Shown here piece by piece: positions 9,001-41,040 of a DNA stretch of 41,040 bases (its first letter is position 1; the number at the start of each line of letters is the position of its first letter). The translations under genes were made by a program, and so were the position numbers. Below the pieces are notes generated by a model that ran no database searches, was not told the DNA's origin, and was given only the letters and a program-made list of their open reading frames with translations. Source of the stretch: a virus; the IMG/VR virus record IMGVR_UViG_3300040809_001432, positions 1-41,040 of that record; one strand, given 5' to 3'.

Positions 9001-12000
9001 GAGAAAATTATAACAATAACGCTAGTGTAGAAATTAGAAAATTTACTGCATTGGTGTTAAATGATGAAACTATAAATGGTAAATGGGCATTATACGAAAG
9101 AAATTATACTGCTAATTCTTGGAATAGGGTTAGAAGTCAAGGATACGATACAAGAGCATATTGGAAATTTATAGATTGGTATAGTACTGGTTATGACAGT
9201 ACAACTCCTATAAATTTTATAATAGATTTTTCTTATCAATTAAATTCTATCAATGATACAATAGGAAATATTGTAAAAATTAATACTATAGGATCAGGTG
9301 GATGGTTGCTACTTAAAAAGGTTGATAATCAAGATAATGTTGACTATTCAATTAATTATGAAACTATTGGACGAGAAAATGGTACAATTGAATTTTTAAA
9401 TACATTGTATGATCCGTATGCAGCCTATTATAATTTTGATTTAAAAAGTTTTGATATTAGTTTTTATGACGATCTTCCAACCACAGAGGTAAGAATTATT
9501 GCTAATGCAATCAAAGATGATATTTTTGTAGATGATTTAGCTATAGAATATAATCGTTTATTTTTTGCAGCTATTAGATATGTTTTATCAGAGCAAGGTT
9601 ATGTTGATTGGTTGTTTAAAACAAGTTTTATAAGAGTAAAACATAATGTAGGTAATTTACGTAAAGATGTAACTTTTAACAATGATAATTTACCAAGTTA
9701 TGAGGACTATGTCAACGAAGTAAAGCCTTACAAGACAAAAATTAGAGAATATATAAGTTCTTATGAAAAAATTGACAATAATCCATTATTAACAGCAGAT
9801 TTTGATTTGGCACCTGCATATGTTGATAGAGATAAAAGGATATTACCACAACAGATTAAAGTCTTTGGAGATGTTTTGTATGGAGTATCCGACGAACATA
9901 TGACTTATCCTAATAAAAATTGGTTAGATAATTGTTATTATGTAGTAACAGACATAAAAATATCTTATTCTGGGTATGGATATAAAACAGTTCCTACTGT
10001 TAGATTCGAAGGCGGCGGTGGTAGTGGCGTTAAAGCAGTTGCATTTTTAGGTGAAAATGGATCAATTGTAAACATAGAAGTTATAGACGAAGGTTCGGGA
10101 TACTTGCAAGCGCCGCAAATTTATATTGATGGCGAAACATATAACGATTTTGCTCCTGCTAGGGTAAGTGTTATTTTAGGTAAACCTCTTGTACGTAGTA
10201 CGTTAACAAAAATAAAATTTGATAGGATAGCAAAGACAATTTTTTATAGTAATATCGATGAATCTTATACAGAAATAACTTCAGGATCAAAATATATATT
10301 TGATTTATACTGGCCAATGTCTTTATTGCCAAAAGATGTAAATGTGTACGTAAACGGAGAAAAACTGTTGTTTAGTAGATATAAGTATGAAAATGTATTA
10401 GATAATACCAAGTCATACACTAGGTATCTAGGTAGAGTAACATTGGTAGATGTGCCTAGCAATTATTCTGAGGTGAAAATTGAGTATAAAAAAGATATTA
10501 ATTTATTGCCAGCTTTAGATAGGTTAAATTATTATTATTCACCTATAGAAAATCAATTTGGAAATACTCCTAATCAGTTGTTAGACGGTATCGATTACGG
10601 AGGTGTTGAAGTTAAAAGTTTTGGATTTGGTAATACAACCGGATGGGATTCGCATGCATTTTTTGTTAATCAATATGATACATATGATACAACATTTGAA
10701 GACCATGTAAACACAGTTGGTAAAAATTTACTGTATAACAGCAATATAGGATATAAGATTCAAATAAATTGGACAAATTTTGCAAAGGCAGTTAATGCTT
10801 TAGTAAAAGGAGACAGTGTTGAAATTGATAATCATACATTGTTCTATTCAATATTTAATGTAAACCAATTAGGAGAACCTGTAACAGATCCTTTAGATGG
10901 TACAAGTATTTTAAATGTACTAGATGAATTAGTATCAGAACTGGTACTTGACCAAAACGGAAATGTTGTTTTAGATGAAAACGGCGATGCTTCGTATCAG
11001 TTAACACCAAGAATTACAATACGTAGTGTTGAACAAATATTGTTATATGGATTGAATAGTGTTGATTTAGAAGAACTTGCAATATACAATATTGAAACAC
11101 AAATAATTCCAATTATATCTACATTAACCGGAAGTCAGGTTGAAAATTTAATAAATGAAACAAATTCAGTTTTAAATGATGTAAAATTAATTTTTAAAAC
11201 ACCGTTAGAAGAAAATGTCCAGTATAATGTTTATTATAATGGATTAAGGATAGATGATATTAATTTTGTAACTGATCCAACTAATATAACTAATCCTAAT
11301 GCTACACTTGCTACAATAATAGGCGACGGTTTACAGCAAGAATTGATTTTAAGAGATATAGTTTCTGATTATCAAACAGATGATGTTGTGATACTACGTA
11401 AACCTACAAGCGATGGTAGTTTTTTACCTACTGATTTGGATTATGATACATTACTTGTTGGAGGAAATTTAGATTATACCAATGCTAAAGGAATAGAATC
11501 AGCAGATATTGTTGTAGATGGAGATAATTTTGTAACGCATACTACATCAAAAGGACCTGAAGAAAATGTTCCTGGTTTAGTTCAAGATACATTAGATATA
11601 AAAGTTTATGAAAGACCAATTGTAGGATCTTCTAATATTTTCTCCATGAATTATATAACAGATGGAATTAACAACACTTACAATATTGGAAATTATCCTT
11701 TATCTGCAAGAAATTTAATTGTAAAAATTGACAAAGAAATAGTAACTAATTATTCTGTGAATTCTAACAAAACAATTACATTTAATACCTTATTACCTGC
11801 TGGTAAACGTGTTAATATAACAACATTAGATTACAGTGGTTTTGATGTGTTAGATGTTGATACAATTGAATGTATATTGTCTACGAATATCTTTGTTGTG
11901 AATGCAAGATGGGAAGAAAATTTACAAAGTGAAGTATCTGTAAATGGAAAAGAAATAGACTATGTAATTGTGCCTTCTAATACAGAGTTTAGCGATAGTA

Positions 12001-13987: not shown

Positions 13988-14602
13988 ATGAATGATATTT
14001 TAAAAGAAAAGTACGGAATTTTAGTCGAAGGATACATTAAAATTTTTGATCCTGAAAGTAAAGAAGTTTACATAGATAAACGTAATGCAATTCATTATGA
14101 GAACATGAGTATTGCATTAGCTCAAAGTATGGCAAATTCAGGTACGGGATTTTTATATCAGATGGTATTTGGTAATGGAGGAACAAGTGTTGATCCTACA
14201 GGTATAATAACATATCTAACACCAAATAGCACAGGAGTTAATGCAAGTCTGTATAATCAAACCTTTAGCAAAGTAATTGACGAGAGCAGTATTAATAATA
14301 AGGATCCTTTTAGGAATAAAACTGAAATTAGGCATGTAAGTGGAACAAATTATACAGATTTGATTGTTTCTTGTTTATTAGATTATGGCGAACCTGAGGG
14401 TCAAGATGCCTTTGATACCGCTGCAACTGCCGACAGTTTGTATGTTTTTGACGAGTTAGGCTTGCAGAGTTATAATCCAAATGGAGAAGGAATGCTAGTT
14501 ACCCATGTCATTTTCCATCCTGTTCAAAAAAGCCTCAATAGATTAATACAGATTGATTACACCGTAAGAATACAAAGCCTATCAGGAATGTTAGGGGAAT
14601 AA
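13988..14602 (+). CDS. Virion structural protein, 204 aa
   Basis: This 204-residue protein starts at an ATG preceded by a good TAGGA ribosome-binding site (13977-13981). It carries a conserved-looking segment FGNGGTSVDPTG at about residues 61-72, followed by 'TYLTPNSTG'. That resembles a structural protein found beside baseplate and tail-fibre genes in marine T4-like phages (recognition from memory, not a search). There is no signal peptide, membrane segment or enzymatic motif. Its place between the giant adhesin and the tail-fibre paralogues supports a baseplate or tail-connector role, but the exact T4 counterpart is not identifiable. The ribosome-binding site of the next gene lies inside its last codons, so the two are probably translated together. 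Confidence 0.7.
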   Translation: MNDILKEKYGILVEGYIKIFDPESKEVYIDKRNAIHYENMSIALAQSMANSGTGFLYQMVFGNGGTSVDPTGIITYLTPNSTGVNASLYNQTFSKVIDESSINNKDPFRNKTEIRHVSGTNYTDLIVSCLLDYGEPEGQDAFDTAATADSLYVFDELGLQSYNPNGEGMLVTHVIFHPVQKSLNRLIQIDYTVRIQSLSGMLGE

Positions 14603-26309: not shown

Positions 26310-26533
26310 ATTTAGAAAATTTTAGTCTAAGAAAGCTACAAAAAGAAAGTTCTCGTGCGTTAGCTACAATAGAAGCAACAAATAATAATATATACCAATT
26401 TAATAAGAATGCACATCACGATAGTCAAAATTGGTATAAAACTGTAATTAAATGGTATGTAAAAGAATATGGAGGATTACCCAGTGAAGTAGGTCCTGGA
26501 AAAGAGATCAAGCTTTTAACAGAAAATGTATAA
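26306..26533 (+). CDS. Small hypothetical protein, 75 aa, just before a radical SAM gene
   Basis: This 75-residue protein is bracketed by two overlaps: ATGA with the upstream fusion gene and ATGTATAA with the downstream radical SAM gene. The sequence is basic and helix-prone at first (LRKLQKESSRALATIE). It then has a conserved-looking 'FNKNAHHDSQNWYKTVIKWY' stretch and a short tail. It has no cysteine, signal peptide or membrane segment. I do not recognise the family. Being small and coupled to a SPASM-like radical SAM enzyme, it could be that enzyme's substrate or partner, but nothing in the residues proves this. A stand-alone virion or regulatory protein is equally possible. Confidence 0.6.
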   Translation: MNLENFSLRKLQKESSRALATIEATNNNIYQFNKNAHHDSQNWYKTVIKWYVKEYGGLPSEVGPGKEIKLLTENV

Positions 26534-27593
26534 TTACAAAGATATAAAAACAATTCATTTAGAAATAACACAAAATTGTCAAGCTTCATGTCCTATGTGT
26601 GATAGGAATCAAAACGGCGGTGCATTAAATCCTCACATAAACTTAGATGAATTAACAATTAATGATGTAAAAAATATATTCACACCGGATTTTATTTCTC
26701 AATTATCTACAATGTATATGTGCGGTAATTTAGGCGATCCTATTGTTGCTCGTGATACATTAGAGGTTTTTGAATATTTTAGGAGTAATAATCCTAAAAT
26801 GTGGTTAAGTATGAACACAAATGCAGGAGCTAGAGATGAGAATTGGTGGCAAGAGCTTGCTAAAATTTATGGCAGGATGGGAGCTGTTATTTTTAGTGTA
26901 GACGGCCTACAGGATACTAATCATATTTATAGGCAAGGTGTAGTTTGGGAAAATGTAGAACGGTCTATGCGTAGCTTTACAAGTGCAGGAGGAAGAGGAC
27001 GTTGGGACTTTTTAATTTTTGATCATAACCAACATCAAGTAGAAGAAGCGGAGCGTTTAAGTAAAGAATGGGGTTTTGAAAAATTTATTAAGAAAAAAAC
27101 TGGAAGATTTGTAACCGCAAATGTTGAAGCAAAGGAAACACATCAAGCAGTAAATAAAAAAGGTAAAAAAACTGCCGAACTTGCAAAACCCAAAGACGAA
27201 TTTCAAAATACTGCTGTAAAAAAGTTGCCTACAATATTAGAAAAGTATGGAAGTATGGACAGCTATTATGATGTTGTTCCGATAAATTGTAAAGTAAAAA
27301 ATGAAGGCAGTTTATTTATAACAGCAGAAGGTTTAGCTCTACCTTGTTGTTGGACAGCTGGCCGGATGTATAAATGGTGGCATGAAGATCCTAAAACAGA
27401 ACAGATTTGGCATTTTATTAAAGATAAATCGTTAATTGATGCAAAAAAAGGCCTGAAAAAAGTTTTTGAATCAAGTGTTTTTAAAGATATCGAAAATAGT
27501 TGGAGTAAAAAAAATTGCAAAGAAGGAAAATTAAAAGTTTGTGCAATTAAATGCGGAAAAGAATTTGATCCTTTTACTGCTCAATTTAAATAG
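26526..27593 (+). CDS. Radical SAM enzyme with SPASM-like C-terminus, 355 aa
   Basis: The radical SAM signature CxxxCxxC is at C18, C22 and C25 ('NCQASCPMC') near the N-terminus. These cysteines hold the [4Fe-4S] cluster that cleaves S-adenosylmethionine. 'MYMCGNLGDPI' takes the place of the usual GGEP strand. 'FSVDGLQDTNHIYRQG' matches the core barrel. The C-terminus has a second cysteine set (C255, C274-C275, C331, C339, C343), consistent with a SPASM-type domain binding auxiliary iron-sulfur clusters, as in enzymes that modify peptides or sugars. It differs in layout from the four other radical SAM genes here, which carry the extra cysteines before the core. It overlaps the 75-aa gene by 8 bases. 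The substrate is unknown. Confidence 0.85.
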   Translation: MYNYKDIKTIHLEITQNCQASCPMCDRNQNGGALNPHINLDELTINDVKNIFTPDFISQLSTMYMCGNLGDPIVARDTLEVFEYFRSNNPKMWLSMNTNAGARDENWWQELAKIYGRMGAVIFSVDGLQDTNHIYRQGVVWENVERSMRSFTSAGGRGRWDFLIFDHNQHQVEEAERLSKEWGFEKFIKKKTGRFVTANVEAKETHQAVNKKGKKTAELAKPKDEFQNTAVKKLPTILEKYGSMDSYYDVVPINCKVKNEGSLFITAEGLALPCCWTAGRMYKWWHEDPKTEQIWHFIKDKSLIDAKKGLKKVFESSVFKDIENSWSKKNCKEGKLKVCAIKCGKEFDPFTAQFK

Positions 27594-27596
27594 TAT

Positions 27597-28865
27597 ATGT
27601 GTGGATTTTATTTTACGAATATAAAACCTAAAAATTTTTATTTTTTAGATGTTATATCAAGAGGTTTAGATTATTGTGTTTTTGACTCCAATGATTATTT
27701 TGCTATACAAAGCGTGTTGCCTTGTGTTAATACAATAGATTTTACAATTTATGAAAGTAAAGAATATTTGTTTTTATATACAGGAGAAATTTACAATTAT
27801 GATAGGAATTTTAATTCAGACACAGAAATGTTTTTTTATGATTTAATCCATAATAGAAATATTTCTAATTATAATGGTATGTATGCTTATGTGTTATACA
27901 ATAAAAAAACAAAAAATATAAAATATGGCAGAGATAAAACAGGACAAATTCCCTTATTTGTTTATAATAAAGCAGGACAAATTATTATATCTAACACAAT
28001 TAAAAGTATTGTTAAATCAATATCTCCAAGTTTGAATACAAATAGTTTGTTATTATGGAAAAAATCTAAACATTATATATTTAATGAGACACCTTGGCAA
28101 GATATATATCTAGTTCCTCCGTCAAGTACTGAAAGACTTGTTAACTCTAAAAAGACAATCAAAGAAACATTTCAAGAATTACAATTAGATTATGTATCAA
28201 AATTATCTGCTGCATCTATAAATAGTGGCGGTGTAGATAGTGGTATTGTTAGTAAATGGTTTGGACAATTTGAAGTTGCAATCAATCATGTTGGCAAAGA
28301 CTTTGTAAGTAATAAATTATCTTTTGCATTTGATGTAGAAGAAGACGAATGGATAGATTATGTAAATAATTTTATTCAAGATGTGTATCTTTTTCCTTAC
28401 ACGTGGAGTTGGGTAGGTTATTATATTTTAGGTAAAAAATTGCAAAAAAAAATTAATATTTTATACACTGGCGAAGGAGCAGATGAAATATTTGGCGGTT
28501 ATCCAGGATATGCAAAAGGTGAGAGAACTCCTTACTCTGATTATTTTCCGATTTATGGGAAAAATTTTTTAGTAGAAAATAAGTTAAGTGATCAAAAATA
28601 TTTTATACCAATTGCTACTATGGGAGCAAACTTAGCATTGGGTAATTTTTGTATAGAGGCAAGATCTCCATTCCTAGACAGACGTTTTTTGAATAATAAA
28701 AATTATTACAAAGAAAATGATAAGAAAATTTTGAAAGAATATTACAAAGAATTGTATAAAAAAGATTATTCAGCGAAGCAAGGATTTGCTGGATTTCCAG
28801 ATGAGTATGGAAAAAATACAAGTTGGAAAGATGCATGTTTTGAACAGTTAAAAACACTTATTTAA
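27597..28865 (+). CDS. asnB: Asparagine synthetase-like glutamine amidotransferase, 422 aa
   Basis: The N-terminal glutaminase half has the catalytic cysteine at residue 2 (MCGF), GEIYN at 63-67 and DTE near 75-77. The C-terminal synthetase half has the ATP pyrophosphatase loop SGGVDSG at 210-216 and GEGADEIFGGY at 292-302, all classic for AsnB. At 422 residues it is much shorter than E. coli AsnB (about 554). The region aligning with the glutamine-binding Arg (RLSI in E. coli) reads 'AIQSVLPCV', and the Asn before GEIYN is Thr, so ammonia supply from glutamine may be altered. AsnB relatives in O-antigen loci amidate sugar acids. Given the glycosyltransferase and CMP-sugar neighbours, sugar or protein amidation is as plausible as making asparagine. 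The symbol denotes family, not proven function. Confidence 0.88.
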   Translation: MCGFYFTNIKPKNFYFLDVISRGLDYCVFDSNDYFAIQSVLPCVNTIDFTIYESKEYLFLYTGEIYNYDRNFNSDTEMFFYDLIHNRNISNYNGMYAYVLYNKKTKNIKYGRDKTGQIPLFVYNKAGQIIISNTIKSIVKSISPSLNTNSLLLWKKSKHYIFNETPWQDIYLVPPSSTERLVNSKKTIKETFQELQLDYVSKLSAASINSGGVDSGIVSKWFGQFEVAINHVGKDFVSNKLSFAFDVEEDEWIDYVNNFIQDVYLFPYTWSWVGYYILGKKLQKKINILYTGEGADEIFGGYPGYAKGERTPYSDYFPIYGKNFLVENKLSDQKYFIPIATMGANLALGNFCIEARSPFLDRRFLNNKNYYKENDKKILKEYYKELYKKDYSAKQGFAGFPDEYGKNTSWKDACFEQLKTLI

Positions 28866-28883
28866 TAATTAGGAATATCAATT

Positions 28884-29555
28884 ATGTCAAAAGGTAAAGT
28901 TACAGCATTTATTCCTTGTAGAAAAGGAAGTACACGGTTAGGATTTGATAAACAATTAAGTTTATTTGCAAATACTACAACATTACTAGATATAAAAGTA
29001 CAGCAACTTTTAGAAGCAAAAAAAATAGATAATGTTGTGCTTTCTACTGACGATGAAAAAATTTTTGAAAAGTTTAATAATATTGATAGAGTTTCTGTTT
29101 TTGAAAGAGATAAAAAATTTTTAGAACTAACAGATGCAAATCATTTTGCAGATATAGCAGTTTCGCATATAAACGAAGGAAATATTTTAATAACTCATTG
29201 TACAGTACCTTTTTTTTCTAGATATGACGATGTAATTACATTTTTTAATGAAAACAATTTAGAATGTGTTATAACTGGTCGTAAAGTTGGCCATATGGTA
29301 GTAGAAAATAATAAGATAGTAAATTGGGATATACAAAACAAAGGAGTTTGGCCACAAACTCAAAAATTACCGAATTGGTTTGAATTTTGTACTGCTGTAG
29401 AACCTCTTATGAGTTTTGATTTAATGAATAATTTAAGAAGTAGATTAAGTAATAAAATAAGTATTTTTGAAGTAAATGATTTAGAAGCATTTGATATAGA
29501 TTATTTAGAACAATGGCGTATTGCAGAAGAGATATGGAAAGCAAAGCAGAAATAA
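28884..29555 (+). CDS. CMP-sugar synthetase-like cytidylyltransferase, 223 aa
   Basis: This 223-residue protein has the family's N-terminal nucleotide-binding loop as 'AFIPCRKGSTRLGFDKQL' (usual form IPARxGSxRxxxKN). It also has 'VVLSTDDEKI', 'HCTVPFFSRYDDV' and a C-terminal 'FDIDYLEQWRIAEEI' with the conserved metal-binding aspartates. It resembles acylneuraminate/KDO cytidylyltransferases (NeuA/KdsB type), which join CTP and a sugar acid to give a CMP-sugar. The particular sugar (sialic-acid-like, KDO-like or other) cannot be assigned. The Lys/Cys substitutions in the loop make the nucleotide specificity less certain. AGGAA precedes the ATG. The tail overlaps the start of the next gene. Confidence 0.82.
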   Translation: MSKGKVTAFIPCRKGSTRLGFDKQLSLFANTTTLLDIKVQQLLEAKKIDNVVLSTDDEKIFEKFNNIDRVSVFERDKKFLELTDANHFADIAVSHINEGNILITHCTVPFFSRYDDVITFFNENNLECVITGRKVGHMVVENNKIVNWDIQNKGVWPQTQKLPNWFEFCTAVEPLMSFDLMNNLRSRLSNKISIFEVNDLEAFDIDYLEQWRIAEEIWKAKQK

Positions 29556-30322
29556 ATTTTTTTAATAAAATTTTTAAAATAGGGTTTACTGATCCTTCTT
29601 TTAAAAAAGTAAGTTTTGATTATGCTGATTGGTGTACTTGGTTAGATAAACACGATGTTTACTTAGCTAAAATTATGCCAAATACTATAGATTCTATGCA
29701 TGATTATTTTTATAAAAATAAATATTATCCAAAAAATTTTTACAATAATGATTTTACTTTTTTTAATAGCTTACGCACAGAAGACGCACAAGATAAAATA
29801 AATAAAGTAATAATTAATGCAATTAGTTTGCGATTGCAACCTGTTTTCAGTCCGCCTATAGTACATTATCATTTAAATTGGTTGCATCCAGGTAAAACGC
29901 TGGTAAGGGCTGCGGGTTTAATTAATAGGGCATGCCCTTGTTTGTTTATTGTAGAAAAAGGTGTTATAGTAAAAAATAAATCTTTCATACTTAAAAAACA
30001 ATTACATAATTTAGAAGAAATTTTATCTTTATATAATGGAAATGAAACATTAGGATCTTTTTTTCAAAAAAATAATAAGGTAATTTTACAATTGCAATCT
30101 TTTACAGGGCATTATGATAAAAAAGATAAAAATAATTGGATTGAATATCCTAAAAATTTAAATTGGAATGCATATTGGGATTATCTTGAAAAGTTAACAA
30201 AAAATTATAATACAGATCAAATTATTAAATTTATTCATAAAGTTTCAAATAGGACTGTAGTGTTGCATAATTACCCTAAAGTATTTCCTAAGGCTTTTAT
30301 TTTTAATAATTTTTTTGAATAA
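29534..30322 (+). CDS. Hypothetical protein with HPG(K/N)TL motif, first paralogue, 262 aa
   Basis: I choose the ATG at 29534 over one at 29513, because AGAAGAGA lies just upstream and the shorter form overlaps the cytidylyltransferase less. The protein is not recognised. Its core 'LNWLHPGKTLVRAAGLINRA' followed by 'LFIVEKGVI' aligns with 'ERVHPGNTLIRACKFLQ' and 'TVLRVSSKEFV' in the next gene. Both then have a strand ending in a 'LQ.....H' pattern and a C-terminal 'YLEKL'-like helix. It has no signal peptide, transmembrane helix or known catalytic motif. The two are diverged duplicates. Their position after the CMP-sugar gene suggests a linked step, but the sequence does not show one. Confidence 0.6.
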   Translation: MESKAEINFFNKIFKIGFTDPSFKKVSFDYADWCTWLDKHDVYLAKIMPNTIDSMHDYFYKNKYYPKNFYNNDFTFFNSLRTEDAQDKINKVIINAISLRLQPVFSPPIVHYHLNWLHPGKTLVRAAGLINRACPCLFIVEKGVIVKNKSFILKKQLHNLEEILSLYNGNETLGSFFQKNNKVILQLQSFTGHYDKKDKNNWIEYPKNLNWNAYWDYLEKLTKNYNTDQIIKFIHKVSNRTVVLHNYPKVFPKAFIFNNFFE

Positions 30323-30342
30323 TTTGAAAAATTAATATAGGA

Positions 30343-31203
30343 ATGGATATAAAAATTTTAAAAAAAAGATTAAACGAACAATTTTATAAAGAGTATGACA
30401 GATATATCTTGCCTTATTATAAATTAACAGGAATAAAAGAAGATAAACAAAAAAGTTTTCGTGAATACATGCATACTTTTGTTGATAATAAGGTTGATTT
30501 AGTTAGATATGATAATTTAGATTGGTATCCAGATAATCGTTATGTTCGAACCAGATCGTATTATAATCAGTGGATAAATTTTTTTGCAGCAAATGATTTA
30601 AACTTTTTTAAAGTTTTTAAAGATGAAGCTTGTCATAGGCACGCAAGGCAACATATAGAACTTTCCTGTGACTTATTAACAAATGAACCTACAGTTTTTC
30701 CTGTACGTATATTACCTGAGAGAGTTCATCCAGGTAATACTTTGATTAGGGCTTGTAAATTTTTGCAAAAGCCTTTGACTGTTTTAAGGGTGAGTTCTAA
30801 AGAATTTGTTGATAATGGAATAATAATTAAAGAATGTAAGTCTTTAGATGATATACAGCAATGTTATGGCGATAAAAAAATCTTTGCTTGGTTTTATAAC
30901 AAACAAAAAACGTATGGTTTACAAGTAGTGGTATTTCATTCAAATTGGACACAATTTGATGAAAATGGAAATTTAAGATGGAGAAGTGATTTTAAATTAG
31001 ATGGAAAATCAATATATCCTTTGCACAAATTTTTAGATTATTTAATTGATCAAACAAATTCTTTAAAAAAATGCCAAAAAATACAGTTTACTTACAGTGG
31101 TAAAAATTATACGTTAAACAATCCTATTAATAAACAATTGTCTAGAAAGATTTTTTTAGATGCTATTAAATGGGGAAATCAAAATTTAACATCAAATTGG
31201 TAA
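30343..31203 (+). CDS. Hypothetical protein with HPG(K/N)TL motif, second paralogue, 286 aa
   Basis: This 286-residue protein is the second member of the pair. It has a longer charged N-terminus (RTRSYYNQWINFF, then 'CHRHARQHIELSCDLL') and the shared core 'RILPERVHPGNTLIRACKFL' around the middle. The HPG...R cluster is conserved between otherwise divergent paralogues, so it probably marks an active or binding site. The family is unknown to me. An AGGA sits directly against the ATG, too close for an ideal ribosome-binding site. It is followed by 59 bases of non-coding AT-rich sequence, the widest gap in the window. Confidence 0.6.
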   Translation: MDIKILKKRLNEQFYKEYDRYILPYYKLTGIKEDKQKSFREYMHTFVDNKVDLVRYDNLDWYPDNRYVRTRSYYNQWINFFAANDLNFFKVFKDEACHRHARQHIELSCDLLTNEPTVFPVRILPERVHPGNTLIRACKFLQKPLTVLRVSSKEFVDNGIIIKECKSLDDIQQCYGDKKIFAWFYNKQKTYGLQVVVFHSNWTQFDENGNLRWRSDFKLDGKSIYPLHKFLDYLIDQTNSLKKCQKIQFTYSGKNYTLNNPINKQLSRKIFLDAIKWGNQNLTSNW

Positions 31204-31262
31204 CTTAACTTTTTATATTATCACAAATTAATTAACAAATTGTATTATATAATAAGTACAGT

Positions 31263-32654
31263 ATGGCAAAAGTATCTAATACATTTTGTATCCTTCCATG
31301 GGTACATTTAAGCACAAGACCAGACGGCTCTATGAGAGTTTGTTGCACAGCAAATGCAAGTTCAGTTGGACCTACTAATGATAAAGAATATGGAGGACAA
31401 ATTGGTATTTTAAAAACTGAAGATGGCAAACCTAATAATTTAAATGTAAGTGATTTTGTAAGCAGCTGGAACAGTACATATATGAAAAATGTACGAAAAC
31501 AAATGTTAAATGGAGAAATACCACCTAGTTGTATAAAATGCTTCAAGGAAGAAGAAGCAGGACATAATAGCAAAAGAATGTGGGAAACACGGTATTGGAG
31601 CGAAAGAGTAAATGTTGATAAATTAATTGCAGATACAAATGCGGACGGAAGTGTTCCTCCACAACTTACATATATTGATTTGAGATTTGGAACTAAATGT
31701 CAACTTGCTTGTGTGATGTGTTCACCACATGATAGTTCTGGTTGGATAAATGATTGGCAAGCAATATATCCGCAAATAGAAAATGTTTCTTTAAAAGAAA
31801 CTATGCAATGGAAAGACAAAGGTAGTTATAATGGTAGTAGTTATAACTGGCATAAAAATAATCCAATATTTTGGGATCAGTTCTATGAACAAATTCCTAA
31901 TATGCAACAAATATATTTTGCAGGAGGCGAGAGTTTAATCATTGAAGAACATTATGATATATTAGAACAGTGTATAAAACAGGGTTATGCAAAAGATTTA
32001 GAATTACGTTATAATTCAAATGGGGTCGAATGGAGAGATGATTTATTTGATCTATGGAAAGAATTTAAATTAGTAAGATTTCATTATAGTGTTGATAGCA
32101 TTAAAGAAATGAATGACTATATTAGATATCCTAGTCAATGGAATAGAACTGAAGAAGTATTTCATTTGTTAGATACTGAGACTAGCAATAATGTAGAAGT
32201 TACAATAGCTTGTGCGGTCCAAGCTTTAAATATATTTTATATACCTGATTTTATAAAATGGAAACTACAGCAAAAATTTAACAAAGTAAATATGTGGCCT
32301 TTTGGTGCAGGTGGTGTAAATTATCATTTTGTTTATCATCCTCCGCATCTAAACGTTAAAATATTGCCAAAATGGTTTAAAGAAAAATGTCGTAAAAAGT
32401 ATGAAGAGTTTTATCCCTGGTGGGAAGAGAACTGGGAATTAGGAATTCCTGCTTGGTATAAAGGAAAAGTTCAATATGCTGATTGGCGTAATGCCGGTTA
32501 CGGAATTAGTAGATTAGAAGGAATGCTTCAATTTATGGAGTCGGAAGATTGGAGTTTAAGATTGCCAGAAACACGAGAATTTTTACAAAAGTGTAATAAA
32601 CAAAGGAATTTAGATTTTAATACAATCTTTCCAGACATGGATAAGGTGTTTTAA
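31263..32654 (+). CDS. Twitch-type radical SAM protein, 463 aa
   Basis: An N-terminal four-cysteine 'twitch' region (C9, C27-C28, C90, C93; 'FCILPWVHLSTRPDGSMRVCC') precedes the radical SAM core. The core has CxxxCxxC at C146, C150 and C153 ('CQLACVMC'). It reads 'FAGGESLII' at about 219-227, where most family members have GGEP. 'NSNGVEWRD' and 'YSVDSIKEMNDYIRYPSQW' match the SAM-barrel strands of the twitch-domain radical SAM family, common in marine phages. The auxiliary cluster probably contacts substrate, and the substrate is unknown. It starts after the largest gap, with no clear ribosome-binding site. The neighbours are an SGNH hydrolase and an oxygenase. Confidence 0.87.
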   Translation: MAKVSNTFCILPWVHLSTRPDGSMRVCCTANASSVGPTNDKEYGGQIGILKTEDGKPNNLNVSDFVSSWNSTYMKNVRKQMLNGEIPPSCIKCFKEEEAGHNSKRMWETRYWSERVNVDKLIADTNADGSVPPQLTYIDLRFGTKCQLACVMCSPHDSSGWINDWQAIYPQIENVSLKETMQWKDKGSYNGSSYNWHKNNPIFWDQFYEQIPNMQQIYFAGGESLIIEEHYDILEQCIKQGYAKDLELRYNSNGVEWRDDLFDLWKEFKLVRFHYSVDSIKEMNDYIRYPSQWNRTEEVFHLLDTETSNNVEVTIACAVQALNIFYIPDFIKWKLQQKFNKVNMWPFGAGGVNYHFVYHPPHLNVKILPKWFKEKCRKKYEEFYPWWEENWELGIPAWYKGKVQYADWRNAGYGISRLEGMLQFMESEDWSLRLPETREFLQKCNKQRNLDFNTIFPDMDKVF

Positions 32655-32676
32655 AAAATTAAAGATTAAGGAAAAA

Positions 32677-33489
32677 ATGTTTATTTTTCGTAAAAAGGAT
32701 AAAAATGTCCCAGATAAAAATGTCTCAGATATAAAGTATCTAGATAAAAAAATTAGGATATATGGATGTAGTTTTACTTATGGAGTATGGCAAAAATATA
32801 CAAAAGATGGAGCCCCACTATCACCACACACTGAGTCTTGGACAGGTTTTTTTGCAAAATTACTTCCTGAATACCAAATTATAAATTATGCTACACCGGG
32901 TTGCAGTGTAAAATGGGTGACTTATTTGTTTAATAAATTTAAAAAAAAATATCCAAATGATATACACATTACTCAAATACCACTTTTAGGAAGGCATAAT
33001 TGGTGGGAAGATGATTTATCTATTGAAGATATATACACGCCTTACAAGTATGAAGATATACCAAATTTAACAAAACATCGGCGAAATCACCGATATAGTC
33101 ACCAACTATCTCCTTCAATACTTGAAAATTCTCAGCATTTTATACGCCCGTTTCGTATATGGACTAAACAAGAAATATCACGCTGGGGCAAAATGTATTT
33201 TGGTGGATTGGTTAATTTGGATCTTGAATTTATGGTTTGGTCATATTTTTTATATGATCATGCTGATTTTGCTTTTCATCAAAAAGGCCTCCAAGATTTT
33301 CCTGGCATGCTGAAAAGCGATAGTGATTATAAAAAACAAAATTTTATTTCTTTTTGGAATGCAATTGAACAAGAGCCAAGCTTAACAACTTACCTAGATT
33401 ATATAGTAGACGATGGACATCATTTAAATCCAGTAGCATTAGAATTTCAAGCTAATTGGGTATATCAAAATATAAAAAATTTATTATAA
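32677..33489 (+). CDS. SGNH/GDSL-type hydrolase, 270 aa
   Basis: Three blocks of the SGNH hydrolase family are visible: block I 'IYGCSFTYG' with the likely nucleophile Ser32, a block II-like 'NYATPGCS' (70-77), and block V 'DDGHHLN' (245-251) with the Asp and His of the triad. These enzymes cleave or transfer acyl esters, often O-acetyl groups on sugars, and some act as transferases. There is no signal peptide. The first ~22 residues are charged and probably disordered, so the enzyme is likely cytoplasmic. In this glycan-type cluster it could remove or move an acetyl group. TAAGGA precedes the ATG. Confidence 0.75.
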   Translation: MFIFRKKDKNVPDKNVSDIKYLDKKIRIYGCSFTYGVWQKYTKDGAPLSPHTESWTGFFAKLLPEYQIINYATPGCSVKWVTYLFNKFKKKYPNDIHITQIPLLGRHNWWEDDLSIEDIYTPYKYEDIPNLTKHRRNHRYSHQLSPSILENSQHFIRPFRIWTKQEISRWGKMYFGGLVNLDLEFMVWSYFLYDHADFAFHQKGLQDFPGMLKSDSDYKKQNFISFWNAIEQEPSLTTYLDYIVDDGHHLNPVALEFQANWVYQNIKNLL

Positions 33490-33491
33490 TT

Positions 33492-34397
33492 ATGGAAAGA
33501 GAAAAGCGAAGATATCCTTTTGTACGGATAAACAATGAAGAAGAAATTGCGAATCATAAACATTATTTTTTAGATTACGAGCATCATCTAGTAGATTTAA
33601 AAAATATTAATGTAATTCATGATATAGCATCTAAGTTACAGCCTGTTCGCACAGAAGAGGATGTGTTTACTAAGGAAGAACTAGATTGGATTTATGGTTT
33701 TGCATTTAGTAGGTGTAACACTGTAAGGAATAATGATAATGGAACAATTTTTGTAAGTGGCAATTTACAAGGAGTTTATGAAAAATTTAAAGATAAAATT
33801 AATTACCTAATTCCAGGAGCAGATAAATCTCCAGTAGTAGGAGGAAATTATTTTATTACTCCTACTCAGTATGGGTTGCATAATGACAGTACAAGAGAAA
33901 ATGACTGGAAAGATAGTTTAAAATTTATGGCAATAGATGGTAATATTAGGAAATATGTACCATGGAGAAATATAATTATTCCAATTTTTACAGGACCAGC
34001 TGATATCGAATCGCATGCTATATTTTTTAAACAAAGGCACATTGATTATGCTCATGTATATCATCATGGCGTGAATCCTAACAAGAAAATTGCAACAACG
34101 TATCCAATTGTAAAAGATTATAGCACAATTAAGTTCCATTTATTAGGAAATCTTATACAAGAAGGAGAAAAAAATCTTGTTCCTTACGATAAAGAACATC
34201 ATGAAAAATATTTATATTATACTCCCTATAAAAGATTAACAGGACTCGAAGTAGAATCAACAGTAATGTGGAAACCTGGTTGCCCTATTGTTTTTGATGC
34301 TTTTCAACTACACGCAACTAATAAAGGATTTGAAAATAAAATGTGGGATTTAAAAATGGGGTTACTATTAACATTTTTACGTAAAGTTGATATATAG
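33492..34397 (+). CDS. Fe(II)/2-oxoglutarate-dependent dioxygenase-like protein, 301 aa
   Basis: The ATG at 33492 is taken as start. A longer reading would begin at TTG (33456) inside the hydrolase gene. The facial-triad pattern is present: HxD as H130-N131-D132 ('YGLHNDST') in an expected strand, and a distal H274 in 'CPIVFDAFQLHATN', the usual 'fD...lH' strand of double-stranded beta-helix oxygenases. The Arg normally binding 2-oxoglutarate is not evident and Lys residues follow, so cosubstrate use is less certain. Expected chemistry is hydroxylation or oxidation of a small molecule, sugar or side chain. It sits between an SGNH hydrolase and a tandem radical SAM protein, 2 bases after the former's stop. 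Confidence 0.7.
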   Translation: MEREKRRYPFVRINNEEEIANHKHYFLDYEHHLVDLKNINVIHDIASKLQPVRTEEDVFTKEELDWIYGFAFSRCNTVRNNDNGTIFVSGNLQGVYEKFKDKINYLIPGADKSPVVGGNYFITPTQYGLHNDSTRENDWKDSLKFMAIDGNIRKYVPWRNIIIPIFTGPADIESHAIFFKQRHIDYAHVYHHGVNPNKKIATTYPIVKDYSTIKFHLLGNLIQEGEKNLVPYDKEHHEKYLYYTPYKRLTGLEVESTVMWKPGCPIVFDAFQLHATNKGFENKMWDLKMGLLLTFLRKVDI

Positions 34398-34401
34398 TCA
34401 A

Positions 34402-36822
34402 ATGAATAATATTAATGAAAAAATAATTTGTCCTGCAGTATGGGATCATTTATGTGTTAATACAAATGGCCATAACAGATTATGTTGTAATTCTAAAACT
34501 AGAGATTCCGATACATTTTTGTACAATCTTGATAATCATTGGAACAAATATAGACTTGATATTAAACAGCAAATGTTAGCAGGTATTAAACCAAAAGAAT
34601 GCAATTCTTGTTGGGATAAAGAGAAGAATAATATTACTAGTTTAAGAGAAACATTAGTAGAAAGATATAAGTTTTATAATTGGTGGGATGATTTTGTAAA
34701 CTCTATTAACATTCATAAAAAGTATCCTACAGAATGGGATTTAAAATTAGGAAATTTTTGTAATCTTAGTTGTAGAATGTGTAACAGTTATAGCAGCAGT
34801 AAATATGCAACTGAATTAAAAAAAATATACAAAGAAACTGGATATGATTATGGTATAGATCCAAATGAAAGATATTTTGAACAATTAGAATGGTATAATT
34901 CAGATCTTTTTTATGACATTTTTAAAAAATCAGTAGATAATGGTTTAAAAGCCATTAAATTTACAGGAGGAGAACCATTGATGGTGCCTAATGTAAAAAA
35001 AATGATAGATTATTGCATTAAAACCAATGTAGCTAAAAATGTAGAATTAAAAATTATTACCAATGCTACGCTTTTAGATGATGAATGGGTTGATAAATTT
35101 AAGAATTTTAAAGATGTGATTTTAAATTGTTCAGTTGATGGAGTTGGTGATATTTTTGAGTATATAAGACATCCTGCAAGTTGGGATACAGTTTATAAAA
35201 ATTTGAATAATCTTAAAGAAATAAAAACAAAAAATATAGTTTTTACAATTTCTTTCACTATGCAAATTTATAATATATTGCAATTACAAAAAATGATTAT
35301 GTTAAGGAGAGAATTAAATGCACAAACTGTAAATGTAATACCTTTATCTGAGCCAAATTATTTTGATGCAAAAAATGCTCCGTTATTTTTAAAAAAACAA
35401 GCTATAGAACAAATTGATGGTATAGTAACAAAAAATCATTTCGAAGAAAGATTTGTAAACAATGCCAGAAGTAAAATTAACCAACAAGCTGATTCTAATG
35501 TTAACCAACTTTACAGTAAGTTAGTAAGTATTACCGAGCTTAAAGATAAGTATAAAAATCAAGATATATATAGTACTGAATTAGGTGAGGTTTTTTTGAA
35601 AATAAAACAAATTGCAGAAAATGTAGATACAAATACTAAAAAAATTGGGAAGACATTTTGTGTCTTACCTTGGACTCATATAGCAACAAACTCAAATGGT
35701 AATCTTAGAGTTTGTTGTAATTCTGTATCCGGTAAAAATTTAATAAGGAAACCTAATGACGAGCCTTATAAGATATATAAGAAGGGAGAAGTAGTAGAAG
35801 CGTGGAATAGTGATTACTATAAAAATTTGAGGAAGCAATTTTTAAATGACGAAGTGCCTGACATATGCACAAGATGTTTTGATTTAGAAAAAAATGGCGT
35901 AAAAAGTCCAAGAAATGGATGGAATGAAAATTACTATGACGAAAATGCATTATATGAAGAAAATGCACCATTCAAAATAAAATATGTAGATATAAGATTA
36001 GGAAATCTTTGCAATTTAAAATGTAGGATGTGTAATCCCTATTCTAGTAATCAATGGGTAAAAGAATGGAAATTATTAGAAAAAGATTTTTTAGATACTG
36101 AGTTAGATAGACTTGAACAATTGAACTGGCCAGAAAAATCTGCATTATGGGATAATTTAAAATTAGTTGCAAACGATGTTGTTATGATTTATCTTACTGG
36201 AGGAGAACCTACTATAATAAAAGAACAACATAAATTATTAGATTATTTTTTAGATAACAATTTAGCAAAGAATGTTAAATTAAAATATAATACTAATCTA
36301 ACAAATATTCCGCATCATTTATTAGATAAATGGAAAAAATTTAAAAATGTTCAAGTAAATTGTTCCATTGATGCTATTGGATCATTGGATAGATACATTA
36401 GGTATCCGAGTGATTGGAATACTATTGCAGAAAATTTTCAAATTGTAAAAAATTTAGAAAATTGCACAATAGAAGTACATTGTACTGTTCAAATGTATAA
36501 TATTATGAGGCTATATGAAATTTTGGATTGGACAATGCAACAAAGAACAAAAATATATTTAAATGTGCTTCATCATCCGGATTATTTAAGTGTTAAAGTT
36601 TTGCCTAATGAATTCAAAAAAATTATTTCAAAAAAATTACAAGAATTTACTTATATCAAAACTGTACCCGGTTTAATAAATTACATAAATTCAGATGATT
36701 GGTATAATAGTTTATTCCAAAAATTTGTCAAAAAAACCAAAATTATAGATTTCGAAAGGAATCAAAATTTTTTAGATCATGTGCCTGAATTTGAACAGTA
36801 TTTTAAAACAGAAACTTTATGA
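34402..36822 (+). CDS. Tandem twitch radical SAM fusion protein, 806 aa
   Basis: Two complete twitch radical SAM modules lie in one chain. Module 1 (about 1-400) has twitch cysteines C10, C28-C29, C67 and C70, a core CxxxCxxC at C120/C124/C127 and TGGEP at 188-192. Module 2 (about 412-806) has 'FCVLPWTHIATNSNGNLRVCC' (C420, C438-C439), C489/C492, a core at C537/C541/C544 and TGGEP at 599-603. Each ends with a 'SVDG.G/SIDAIG...YIR.P..W' segment. Both modules keep all cluster cysteines, so both look active. The in-frame TTG at 34387 is rejected in favour of ATG 34402. The layout could channel an intermediate between two radical steps or process a repetitive substrate. It ends in an ATGA overlap with the next gene. 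Confidence 0.88.
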   Translation: MNNINEKIICPAVWDHLCVNTNGHNRLCCNSKTRDSDTFLYNLDNHWNKYRLDIKQQMLAGIKPKECNSCWDKEKNNITSLRETLVERYKFYNWWDDFVNSINIHKKYPTEWDLKLGNFCNLSCRMCNSYSSSKYATELKKIYKETGYDYGIDPNERYFEQLEWYNSDLFYDIFKKSVDNGLKAIKFTGGEPLMVPNVKKMIDYCIKTNVAKNVELKIITNATLLDDEWVDKFKNFKDVILNCSVDGVGDIFEYIRHPASWDTVYKNLNNLKEIKTKNIVFTISFTMQIYNILQLQKMIMLRRELNAQTVNVIPLSEPNYFDAKNAPLFLKKQAIEQIDGIVTKNHFEERFVNNARSKINQQADSNVNQLYSKLVSITELKDKYKNQDIYSTELGEVFLKIKQIAENVDTNTKKIGKTFCVLPWTHIATNSNGNLRVCCNSVSGKNLIRKPNDEPYKIYKKGEVVEAWNSDYYKNLRKQFLNDEVPDICTRCFDLEKNGVKSPRNGWNENYYDENALYEENAPFKIKYVDIRLGNLCNLKCRMCNPYSSNQWVKEWKLLEKDFLDTELDRLEQLNWPEKSALWDNLKLVANDVVMIYLTGGEPTIIKEQHKLLDYFLDNNLAKNVKLKYNTNLTNIPHHLLDKWKKFKNVQVNCSIDAIGSLDRYIRYPSDWNTIAENFQIVKNLENCTIEVHCTVQMYNIMRLYEILDWTMQQRTKIYLNVLHHPDYLSVKVLPNEFKKIISKKLQEFTYIKTVPGLINYINSDDWYNSLFQKFVKKTKIIDFERNQNFLDHVPEFEQYFKTETL

Positions 36823-38204
36823 AAGTAACAAACGCCATTGTAAATATTGCAAATGATAGCAATAATGTAGGATTTTTATTTTGGAATGATTATTATATAA
36901 ATAGGAAAAAGTATAAATTCCATGCAAAGTACGCAACAGAATTAATGAATTTAACAATAACTACTACTAATGCCTCGTTTGATCAAAATATAAATTTTAT
37001 AACAACAAATAATATTAATGAAGGATTGCAATTTTATAAAAAATTAAATTTTGAAGTAGTTATAGTACAAACTCCTGGTCATATTTTAAAAGGTAATTTT
37101 TTAACTGAATTATTAAATTATACTAATACCTTAGATTGGTCTTTAATTGGACATATCTTAGATAAAGGTAATTGGTTAACACTTCATGATCAATGTTTTG
37201 TAATAAATTTAACAAAATTTTTTGACAACGAATTAGATTTTAATATAGAAAAGCAAAATTTACTTGTTCCGTTATATGATCGAAGTTTTGATAATTTTCA
37301 CGATAATTATACTCCTAAGTTTGTAAAATTTAATAATAATTTTAGCAAAATGCAAGTAGGGTTTGCAGCAAATATTTTATCAAAGTCTTTATTAACTAAT
37401 TCGTTACATATTTTTCCTGAAAGTATAAGAAATACCAAAACCCATCTTTATCCTGAAAATGATATGCATTATGAAGATTGGAATGGCATAGGATTAACTG
37501 ATGTTAAAGGTAATCAGTTATCTCAATTAACTAAAATTATTGAAAATCATGCAAATCCTAAAAGCAGGCAAATTCATTTTTTTAACAATGAAAGTTGTAA
37601 CATAGATAGAATTAAAAAGTTTACAAAAAAAGAAAAATTTGAAAACTTAATTGTTCCTGCTAGTGGATTTTATGCTAATCAATTCTTAAAACATTTTGAT
37701 GTTAAAAAAATTATATTTTTTGATATAATGCCTGACATTTTAAATATTAAAAAAGAATTAGACAAAATATGGGACGGTTCACAAGAAAAATTAGATGAAA
37801 TCAGTTATAAACACAAAGATATAATATTTGATAGTAGTAAGGAAAAAAAATTAAAGGATATGTATGTAAATGATTTATATAGTTTTACTAAATATAAAGA
37901 AGTTTTAAAAGAATATGTAGAGATTGATATTATTCAATTGCCTGAAAGATTTGTAGACATTGTTCCTAAAAATGGAGACACGTTTATATGGTTAAATTCT
38001 ATTTACACTTATTGGTATAATCTTTGGTTACATAAGCCACACAACATTGTAGAATCATATATAACATTGATGAAGTCTTTAGCTAAAAATAAAAATAAAA
38101 TTTGGATAGAAGTAAAAGATCCGTTAGGAGGATATAAACTATTTGAAAAAAATGATTTTTTCCTGGATTATGCTTATAAAAGTGGTTATTCATTATGGAC
38201 TTAA
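36819..38204 (+). CDS. Hypothetical protein, Rossmann-like C-terminus, 461 aa
   Basis: This 461-residue protein is not recognised with confidence. The N-terminal half has strands such as 'VVIVQTPGHIL' and 'WSLIGHILDKGNW', then 'LHDQCFVINL', recalling glycosyltransferase-like folds but without a clear DxD. The C-terminal half has 'LIVPASGFYANQFLKHF' near 280, followed by 'KIIFFDIMPDIL'. That is a beta-loop-alpha-beta arrangement like a nucleotide- or SAM-binding Rossmann domain ending in an acidic residue. It then runs to 'IWIEVKDPLGGYKLF'. I infer a transferase, possibly a methyltransferase. The gene is bounded by an ATGA start and a 10-base end overlap, so it belongs to the cluster. Confidence 0.5.
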   Translation: MKVTNAIVNIANDSNNVGFLFWNDYYINRKKYKFHAKYATELMNLTITTTNASFDQNINFITTNNINEGLQFYKKLNFEVVIVQTPGHILKGNFLTELLNYTNTLDWSLIGHILDKGNWLTLHDQCFVINLTKFFDNELDFNIEKQNLLVPLYDRSFDNFHDNYTPKFVKFNNNFSKMQVGFAANILSKSLLTNSLHIFPESIRNTKTHLYPENDMHYEDWNGIGLTDVKGNQLSQLTKIIENHANPKSRQIHFFNNESCNIDRIKKFTKKEKFENLIVPASGFYANQFLKHFDVKKIIFFDIMPDILNIKKELDKIWDGSQEKLDEISYKHKDIIFDSSKEKKLKDMYVNDLYSFTKYKEVLKEYVEIDIIQLPERFVDIVPKNGDTFIWLNSIYTYWYNLWLHKPHNIVESYITLMKSLAKNKNKIWIEVKDPLGGYKLFEKNDFFLDYAYKSGYSLWT

Positions 38205-38827
38205 AACAATTAGCAAAGCTAAGATGTGCATGGGTAAAAATGAATTATGAAGTGCCATCATCAGATATATTATTTGAATTTAAACGAATACAACATTTAT
38301 TAGTAAATCATCGCACAGATTATTCTTACGGTTGGCAAAGTTTAACTTTGCATGGGCATAATTTACATTGGACAGAAGCTATAGATAAATATCCTGGATA
38401 TGAAGATCAAATTGATTCTAATTTCGATTATCACTGGACTGAGCTAGCAAAGGAATGTCCGATTACCACAGAGTTTATTAGTTCTCTACCATATAGTAAA
38501 TTACATAGGGTAAGATTTATGCTTTTACGTAAAGGTGGTTATATTAGGTTCCATAGAGATACAGACAAATTAACATTATCACCATTGAATATAAGCATAA
38601 ACAATCCTAAAAATTGTTCTTTTATTGTATATGATGATATTTTAGATATTGAAAAAACTATTCCTTTTGATGATAGTACTAGTTTTCATGTAAATATTGG
38701 TTTACGACATGCGGTTTTTAATAATTCTAATGAAGACAGACTGCATATTATAGTTCATGGTAATCATATAAAAGATTTTAATTTAATATGTCAAAATTTA
38801 ATTGTTAATTATGATAAGGAAATATGA
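38195..38827 (+). CDS. Aspartyl/asparaginyl hydroxylase-like oxygenase, 210 aa
   Basis: The sequence 'HRVRFMLLRKGGYIRFHRDTD' supplies H120-R121-D122. 'INNPKNCSFIVYDDI' and 'VNIGLRHAVFNNSNEDRLHIIVHG' supply a distal H172 and Arg near 181. The spacing fits the Asp/Asn beta-hydroxylase (cupin-type, 2-oxoglutarate) family, with two His as iron ligands. In that family the substrate is a protein or peptide side chain, so this gene hints at a polypeptide target, though small-molecule members exist. It is cytoplasmic, with no signal peptide. It overlaps its neighbours by 10 and 4 bases. It is the second oxygenase of the cluster and not closely similar to the first. Confidence 0.72.
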   Translation: MDLKQLAKLRCAWVKMNYEVPSSDILFEFKRIQHLLVNHRTDYSYGWQSLTLHGHNLHWTEAIDKYPGYEDQIDSNFDYHWTELAKECPITTEFISSLPYSKLHRVRFMLLRKGGYIRFHRDTDKLTLSPLNISINNPKNCSFIVYDDILDIEKTIPFDDSTSFHVNIGLRHAVFNNSNEDRLHIIVHGNHIKDFNLICQNLIVNYDKEI

Positions 38828-39993
38828 TAGATAAAGATACTTTTTGCTATGTTCCTTTTAAAGAATTATATTTTGAGGAATTGTATGGAGGAAATATAAG
38901 GAGTTGTTGCATACAAGATATAAAAGACGAAATAGATAGTAATGATGTTTTTGAAAATGATCCAAATATATGGTTTTTAAAAGCAAACAAGCGTATAAAA
39001 CAATTGCGTACAGCTTTTGTTAAAGGCCAAAAACCAAAAGAATGTTGGAGATGTTGGAAATTAGAAGATGATAATGCAGTAAGTTATAGACAAAAATGGA
39101 ATAGGCGGTATCAGAATGAAACTAGAGCCGTCAGCTTACGAGTTATAGATATACGATTAAGCAATAAGTGCAATTTGCAGTGTAAGATGTGTGGTCCGCA
39201 CTTTAGCGATCAAATAGGAAAAAATGTTTTAGAAGCAGTTAAACATACCAATTATAAAAATGAATTTCATAATAATAATTTTAGGCCTACAGATAATAAA
39301 TTATTATTTAATTTAAAAAATAGTCTTCCTCAAAATAAAACTATAGAAAAAATAAAATTAGGCGGCGGCGAACCTATGATTATGGATGAAGTTGAAGATT
39401 TTTTACAGGCTTTGGTTGAAAAAGGTAGGACAGATTTAGATATTTTTGTTTTAAGTAATTGTACAACAATTAAAACAAGTATAATAGATATATTAACAAA
39501 ATTTAATAAAGTTGAAATAAGCTGTAGTATTGATGGAGTAGGTAAGTGGATAGAATACCAAAGATTTCCATGTAGTTGGAAAAGTATCGAAAGAAATTTT
39601 AAAAGGTTACAAGATGCAGGAATTACCGCAACCCTAACCCCTTGTTTTTCAATGCTAAATATTTTAGGATTAGCAGAATATATTGACTGGGTAAATTCGT
39701 TAGGCATTGTTTATACATCATTTAATGAAGTTCATTTTCCTAGTTGTTTGCATTGGTCAGTGATTCCTATAGATTTTAGGAAAGACTTAAACGATAGGTT
39801 AGAAAATATTTCTTTTAAGGTGCCTAGATCAGAACATTTATTTACAAGTATAAAGCATAGATTAAAAACTGAGCATAGGCTATTAACAGATGCCGAAAAA
39901 GATACGTTAAGGAATAAAATATTATTATGGGATTATAACAATAAAATTAAATTTAAAGATTTTGTACCTTTTTACAGAGAATTAAATTTATGA
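38824..39993 (+). CDS. Twitch-type radical SAM protein, 389 aa
   Basis: This 389-residue protein has the same order as the other twitch members: C8, C28-C29, C74 and C77 for the auxiliary cluster, then CxxxCxxC at C116, C120 and C123 ('CNLQCKMC'). 'LGGGEPMIM' (GGEP at 181-184), 'LSNCTTI' and 'SCSIDGVGKWIEYQRFPCSW' follow. It has the short conserved tail 'WDYNNKIKFKDFVPFYREL'. The twitch motif begins 'FCYVPFKELYFEE', a loose variant of the PW.HL form, suggesting substrate specificity different from its neighbours. It starts at an ATGA overlap with the hydroxylase gene, which suggests co-translation of the two oxidising enzymes. Confidence 0.87.
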   Translation: MIDKDTFCYVPFKELYFEELYGGNIRSCCIQDIKDEIDSNDVFENDPNIWFLKANKRIKQLRTAFVKGQKPKECWRCWKLEDDNAVSYRQKWNRRYQNETRAVSLRVIDIRLSNKCNLQCKMCGPHFSDQIGKNVLEAVKHTNYKNEFHNNNFRPTDNKLLFNLKNSLPQNKTIEKIKLGGGEPMIMDEVEDFLQALVEKGRTDLDIFVLSNCTTIKTSIIDILTKFNKVEISCSIDGVGKWIEYQRFPCSWKSIERNFKRLQDAGITATLTPCFSMLNILGLAEYIDWVNSLGIVYTSFNEVHFPSCLHWSVIPIDFRKDLNDRLENISFKVPRSEHLFTSIKHRLKTEHRLLTDAEKDTLRNKILLWDYNNKIKFKDFVPFYRELNL

Positions 39994-41040
39994 ATTCACA
40001 AAAAAACATTGTTTGTAGTAAGATGTGGACAGATATAAATGTTAGAATACCATATAAAAGTATTATCAATTGTTGTAAAAAAGATAACACAGTTGTATCT
40101 TTAGAAGAAATACAAGAAAAAGGTATAGATGTTTTTCATTTTAGGAAAGAAGAGTATGATGACAAAAAGCATTTTGTAGAAAATAATTGGTTTCCAAAAA
40201 ATTGTAGAAATTGCGAACAAAATTGGCCAAATAGTATTTGGAATAGGTGGAATAAATGGAGAGAAAAAACAACGGATGAAGTAGCAGAATTTCCTTTACT
40301 GTCATTGGAAAATAATATGACAGAATATATTGAAATTATGTTGTCTACAGTTTGCAATCAAACATGCATGTATTGTGGAAGTCATACAAGTAGTCTCTGG
40401 GCAGAGTTAGAAGGGCTAAAACAAACTGAAGATACAGAATATTTAAACCTAGTTTTAGGAAATATTTATGAATTTGTAGATAAAAAACAAATAGATAATG
40501 TTACTTATAATTTTTTAGGTGGTGAGCCATTTTTAGATCTACGATTTAATAGTGTACTAGATAATCTTGTTAATATACATAAAAAAAATAATACACATAT
40601 TGCCAGATTGTTAATAACTACAAATTTAAATATAAAAAGAAAAATTTTACAAAATTTTTTGTCCAAGTGGAACTCGTATAATTTAGATAAAACAAAGTTA
40701 GTAATATGTCCAAGTATTGATAGGATTGGGCGTATGGGGGAAATAATTAGAGATGGTTTAAATTTTAATTTATTTGATAGCAATATAGATTTGTTATGTG
40801 ATTATGCAAAAAGAAATAATAATTTTAGGATTAGTTGGTCGCCAGCAATTAATTTGTTAAGTATTTCTGGTCACTTAGAATTGCTGCGTTATATTGAAAA
40901 CAAATGTTCTAATATGAATAGCGTTCACCAATGGACTATAGGAGAAAATTTCATAAATGGTCCTTTACCTATGCATCCCGGTTTAGCACCAGAAAGTTAT
41001 AAAAATTACATGGACGAATCTATACAATTATTAAAAAATC
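39990..41040 (+). CDS. Twitch-type radical SAM protein, 3' partial
   Basis: This frame opens at ATG 39990 (ATGA overlap with the previous stop) and stays open to the right edge: 350 codons with no stop. The twitch cysteines are C9, C28-C29, C72 and C75, and the radical SAM core is C122/C126/C129 ('CNQTCMYCG'). 'FLGGEP' ends at 180. The following 'ICPSIDRIGRMGEIIRDGLNF' fits the SAM-barrel strand, more divergent than in the sister genes. The visible part lacks a C-terminus, so extra domains cannot be judged. It is the fifth radical SAM gene and sixth radical SAM domain here. The cluster therefore may continue beyond the window. Confidence 0.83.
   Translation, partial: MNSQKNIVCSKMWTDINVRIPYKSIINCCKKDNTVVSLEEIQEKGIDVFHFRKEEYDDKKHFVENNWFPKNCRNCEQNWPNSIWNRWNKWREKTTDEVAEFPLLSLENNMTEYIEIMLSTVCNQTCMYCGSHTSSLWAELEGLKQTEDTEYLNLVLGNIYEFVDKKQIDNVTYNFLGGEPFLDLRFNSVLDNLVNIHKKNNTHIARLLITTNLNIKRKILQNFLSKWNSYNLDKTKLVICPSIDRIGRMGEIIRDGLNFNLFDSNIDLLCDYAKRNNNFRISWSPAINLLSISGHLELLRYIENKCSNMNSVHQWTIGENFINGPLPMHPGLAPESYKNYMDESIQLLKN

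Follow-up and report, generated by a model that had tools for sequence, protein, structure and literature searches.

The window, which is the whole stretch of DNA analysed here (41,040 nucleotides), contained a gene for a protein of 806 aa in which two radical SAM modules, designated N and C in order, were joined by a linker. The frame was open from TTG at 34387 or ATG at 34402 through TGA at 36822 with zero internal stops, and the 41-kb sequence was free of undetermined bases. The gene had the following features.

34402..36822, + strand: fused gene of 806 aa (N module, linker and C module); open frame with two NF033640 matches
34420..35574, + strand: N module (twitch and radical SAM core); NF033640 positions 2-389, 293.7 bits
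34429..34611, + strand: N-module twitch ligands CX13GX4C (residues 10-28) and CX2C (67-70), by motif scan
34759..34782, + strand: N-module radical SAM motif CNLSCRMC (CX3CX2C, residues 120-127), by motif scan
35575..35649, + strand: linker region, the end of N followed by about 18 residues that relatives lack, beginning at residue 399 (nt 35596)
35591..35597, + strand: T7 run at the junction, closely preceded by SD-like AGGTGAGG; a TTG lies at 35596
35650..36804, + strand: C module (twitch and radical SAM core); NF033640 positions 2-398, 378.1 bits
35659..35877, + strand: C-module twitch ligands CX13GX4C (residues 420-438) and CX2C (489-492), by motif scan; Pfam SPASM match at residues 420-492
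36010..36033, + strand: C-module radical SAM motif CNLKCRMC (CX3CX2C, residues 537-544), by motif scan

The best family for the fused gene among the best 25 of 33 matched families was NF033640 (N_Twi_rSAM, twitch domain-containing radical SAM protein; NCBIfam), with an E value of 1.7e-198. Each half alone matched the whole model and exceeded its curated cut-off of 170 bits. All 8 expected cysteines were found in each half, out of 11 cysteines per half in total, and GGEP was located at residues 189 and 600. The preliminary description had claimed two intact modules rather than one degenerate copy, with seven or more expected cysteines and a TGGEP strand in both, and the full-length matches with every ligand in place bore this out. 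The N-module twitch ligands were invariant or nearly so in the module alignments A3 and A6, and CX9-15GX4C was present upstream of the radical SAM core in 607 of 766 modules. When compared with relatives, 2 of 104 clade-invariant positions were changed in the N half and 10 of 106 in the C half, with zero changes at cluster ligands in either. The Pfam SPASM match in the C module was N-terminal to the core. SPASM peptide maturases (RiPP) have a C-terminal SPASM that holds two auxiliary clusters, and the gene of a precursor peptide close by.

Fold prediction, proposed earlier as a check, gave confident models of both modules (pLDDT about 94.5), with AlphaFold2 mean pLDDT of 94.7 for N (model m69ff82f4fcea) and 94.5 for C (m82c0752a6328). 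The modelled cores of both halves matched SkfB, anSME, BlsE and viperin, with best Z scores of 14.6 (N) and 13.8 (C), and these matches scarcely covered the N-terminal twitch part. Alignment A4 was rejected as input for full-length folding, as MAFFT placed N orthologues onto the C half; the modules were therefore modelled individually, with no predicted mutual orientation.

The phage setting assumed in the preliminary description was supported, as genes for a tail collar and tail fibres were located upstream of the radical SAM region. The region 26526-41040 encoded five NF033640 modules over four genes and one more distant radical SAM gene, together with asparagine synthase-like, cytidylyltransferase-like and Asp/Asn hydroxylase-like genes. 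The genes of the region referred to below are listed here.

31263..32654, + strand: gene A, a twitch radical SAM gene that is in synteny with N and C in relatives; 409.9 bits to NF033640
33492..34397, + strand: gene H, lying between genes A and N; 56-64% conservation among the relatives that bear N
38824..39993, + strand: gene D, twitch radical SAM; 249.5 bits to NF033640
39990..41040, + strand: gene E, diverged twitch radical SAM, truncated by the window end; 119.2 bits, below the cut-off

Zero family matches were obtained for gene H and for the gene at 36819-38204, and comparison of gene H and an 848-aa gene with PDB sequences also gave zero matches. DNA relatives of 26526-34400 were not found among named phages. 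The nearest named relatives of the gene at 13988-14602 were the jumbo phages Phosso, Atu_ph07 and Munch, suggesting that the window may represent part of a jumbo phage genome. An open frame of at least 4614 aa with an FG-GAP match was also seen at 123-13967, upstream of the tail fibre genes.

Orthologues of N were detected on 15 other IMG/VR contigs, all as stand-alone genes (identity 44-52%). C was present as its own gene in 14 of the 14 N-bearing contigs reaching far enough, the 15th contig ending earlier. It directly followed N with an overlapping stop/start in 4 of the 14, and a third radical SAM gene, M, lay between them in the other 10. The gene order in relatives was thus A-(H)-N-[M]-C, and gene A was 76-81% identical in those N-bearing relatives that were compared. 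The preliminary description had stated that separate genes in relatives would count against its reading; such relatives exist, and they refute the duplication it proposed while the fusion itself stands. Locus L013 had the order A-H-N-C as in the window, with N and C overlapping by 14 bases in different frames, and its junction, TACTATGACTCAATCTAA, contained the N stop and the C start. L013 and L171 were 96-97% identical in DNA except for M, the insert of L171 measuring 1136 bp with edges at TATGA (L013:5988-5992 vs L171:6277-7414), and L167 and L181 also differed by the presence or absence of M at the same site. These differences indicated that whole genes are gained or lost at stop/start overlaps. 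As M behaves as a one-gene cassette, N and C appear to be two adjacent cassettes that fused. The C half seemed to have evolved somewhat faster than in L177 at a similar distance of gene A (about 53 vs 65% identity), and the N half was without such acceleration when compared with L177. Judged by gene A, the closest relative was L199 (91% identity), which had neither N nor C in its 2.1 kb of downstream sequence. Two overlapping frames at L199:8380-9281 encoded a radical SAM core (8380-8973) and its apparent C-terminal cysteine-rich domain (8970-9281), a split that is the reverse of a fusion.

The junction itself was examined for the main caveat to the fusion, the possibility that two real genes, N with its stop at TGA and C with its start at TTG 35596, were joined by a one-base homopolymer error in the assembly. 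The T7 run at 35591-35597 lies at the relevant place; if the run were one T shorter, N would end in TELGEVF*, where relatives end (KYYD/KYYE), and the stop would overlap the TTG start of C (TTGA), in the same overlap style as the genes of relatives and with the SD-like AGGTGAGG ahead of the TTG. On the other hand, the genes of the window contained 62 A/T runs of at least 7, of which zero broke the frame, making a miscall at the T7 run unlikely; we estimated its chance at about one in ten or less. Moreover, TTG at 35596 was the sole in-frame start for C near the junction, where all frames lacked an ATG from which C could start as its own gene. Nearly all genes of the window start with ATG and a TTG start is needed nowhere else (20338 being TTGATG), and C would be extended at its N terminus by about 18-20 residues and have no ATG, unlike all relatives. 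An assembly artefact was thus considered improbable. The suspicion raised earlier about the linker (about 35590-35650) was justified, as a T7 run lies exactly at the junction. The exact N-C junction had zero other occurrences in IMG/VR, and the fusion was present in one contig only. The linker was also compared with M as a possible remnant of it, and this candidate was rejected, as the local score of 15 was equalled by 974 of 1000 shuffles.

A real fusion in which internal initiation at TTG 35596 or slippage at T7 also yields C alone, with fused and free enzymes side by side, was judged no more probable than the artefact. The SD-like AGGTGAGG before an in-frame TTG and the slippery nature of T7 agree with it, but the feature is known from no relative, TTG starts are unneeded elsewhere in the window, and such patterns are frequent by chance in A+T-rich DNA. 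A composite account, in which the T7 junction gives fused and free forms or an intermediate is handed over directly, in a gene built by cassette shuffling at stop/start overlaps, is in our estimate equally doubtful.

Substrate channelling, in which the product of one half is passed to the other, is less probable still. The syntenic neighbourhood of N and C in relatives suggests that the two may act in one pathway and is in line with such a transfer, but a third enzyme gene lies between them in 10 of 14 relatives, and in the precedent FbiC the transfer is reported to occur by diffusion (PMC8498797).

N and C were placed in different clades of a 321-module tree, and their most recent common ancestor spanned 231 of the 321 tips at an unsupported node. 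The topology was tested by a 50-row IQ-TREE analysis with a mixture model, in which group support was 99 for N and 100 for C with its near kin. Forcing N and C into one clade cost 60.9 log-likelihood units and was rejected (p-AU 0.0046). The separate clades and the rejected joint clade indicated that N and C go back to an old duplication and that only their joining is recent. The two modules are indeed clearly diverged from each other, as first described (33% identity), and the duplication-fusion in the sense of a local event has to be abandoned. Local tandem duplication followed by fusion would fit the observation that the best match of the N half within the window is the C half, but it has virtually no chance of being correct, as the N and C orthologues are separate genes in separate clades, 45-59% identical to their window counterparts, and a joint clade was rejected.

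Frames with two modules were rare, numbering 3 of 763 module-bearing frames from 279 loci, a redundant set in which some contigs were sampled more than one time. In addition to the window gene, they were as follows.

L120:9527-12184, minus strand: tandem fusion in a Bdellovibrionales MAG, two NF033640-type modules in one frame (886 aa)
L245:2948-5212: tandem fusion in a virus, two NF033640-type modules in one frame (755 aa)

Both resemble the window gene in carrying two NF033640-type modules in one frame and differ from it in the module pairs, which belong to other subclades, suggesting that fusion arose independently. Relatives of the L120 modules occupied separate frames in L129. In the host order of L120, the NF033640 family was present in 20 of 60 genomes, with up to 19 copies, and the tandem fusion was found only in L120. 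The Bdellovibrionota genomes G024 and G033 each had 19 NF033640 copies, many within one dense cluster.

The fused gene is a true, uncommon architecture in a family and a type of phage region that are already known. It probably arose by fusion of the neighbouring, long-diverged N and C genes, giving two independent sites that serve one pathway and are co-expressed. In the ancestral state, N and C would have been separate, overlapping stop-to-start or with the M cassette between them. In the phage of the window, the N stop and the C ATG would then have been lost, leaving the halves joined by the linker of about 18 residues. Each half is expected to bind a SAM-cleaving [4Fe-4S] cluster and an auxiliary cluster of its own, and may run its own radical reaction, with both reactions in one pathway. 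The fusion would fix 1:1 co-expression and proximity, and the active sites most likely operate independently, as in FbiC, rather than through a physical channel. The location of the gene behind those for tail fibres, with cytidylyltransferase, amidotransferase and hydroxylase-like genes around it, hints that the pathway most likely modifies a virion or cell-surface component. Fusion of N and C in this manner shows a possible origin of fusions in phage enzyme cassettes, in which a stop/start junction of the TATGA type becomes an in-frame linker, and two enzymes of an uncharacterised family tied to one pathway offer a handle for finding the substrate.

FbiC, the fused CofG/CofH of F420 biosynthesis, is the closest known dual radical SAM fusion, and its domains have been reported to be independent (PMC8498797). 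Like the fused gene, FbiC has two complete radical SAM domains whose genes are separate elsewhere, but it belongs to a different radical SAM family. The halves of FbiC are not known to carry N-terminal twitch domains. No gene for F420 biosynthesis was recognised in the window, and no CofG, CofH or FbiC model was among the best 25 of the 33 families matching the fused gene. The resemblance lies solely in the dual fusion, and the gene is not classed as FbiC.

As for the genomic context, radical SAM gene cassettes are contained in the host-recognition cluster of pelagimyophages (PMC7029224), and a T4-like marine genome has 12 radical SAM genes (PMC5332604). As described there, both resemble the window in being marine phages with radical SAM gene cassettes in a variable region after the tail fibre genes, and they differ from it in that the passages on these cassettes describe no fusion (PMC7029224, PMC5332604). 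The likeness does not imply kinship with the pelagimyophage/T4-like group, since the gene at 13988-14602 is nearest to jumbo phages. Both halves are like NF033640 members in matching the whole model above the cut-off with an N-terminal auxiliary-cluster domain, whereas the members found here are nearly all single-module genes and the fused gene has two modules. With separate, neighbouring N and C genes in close relatives, it represents a rare fusion within a known type of phage cluster, not a new enzyme class.
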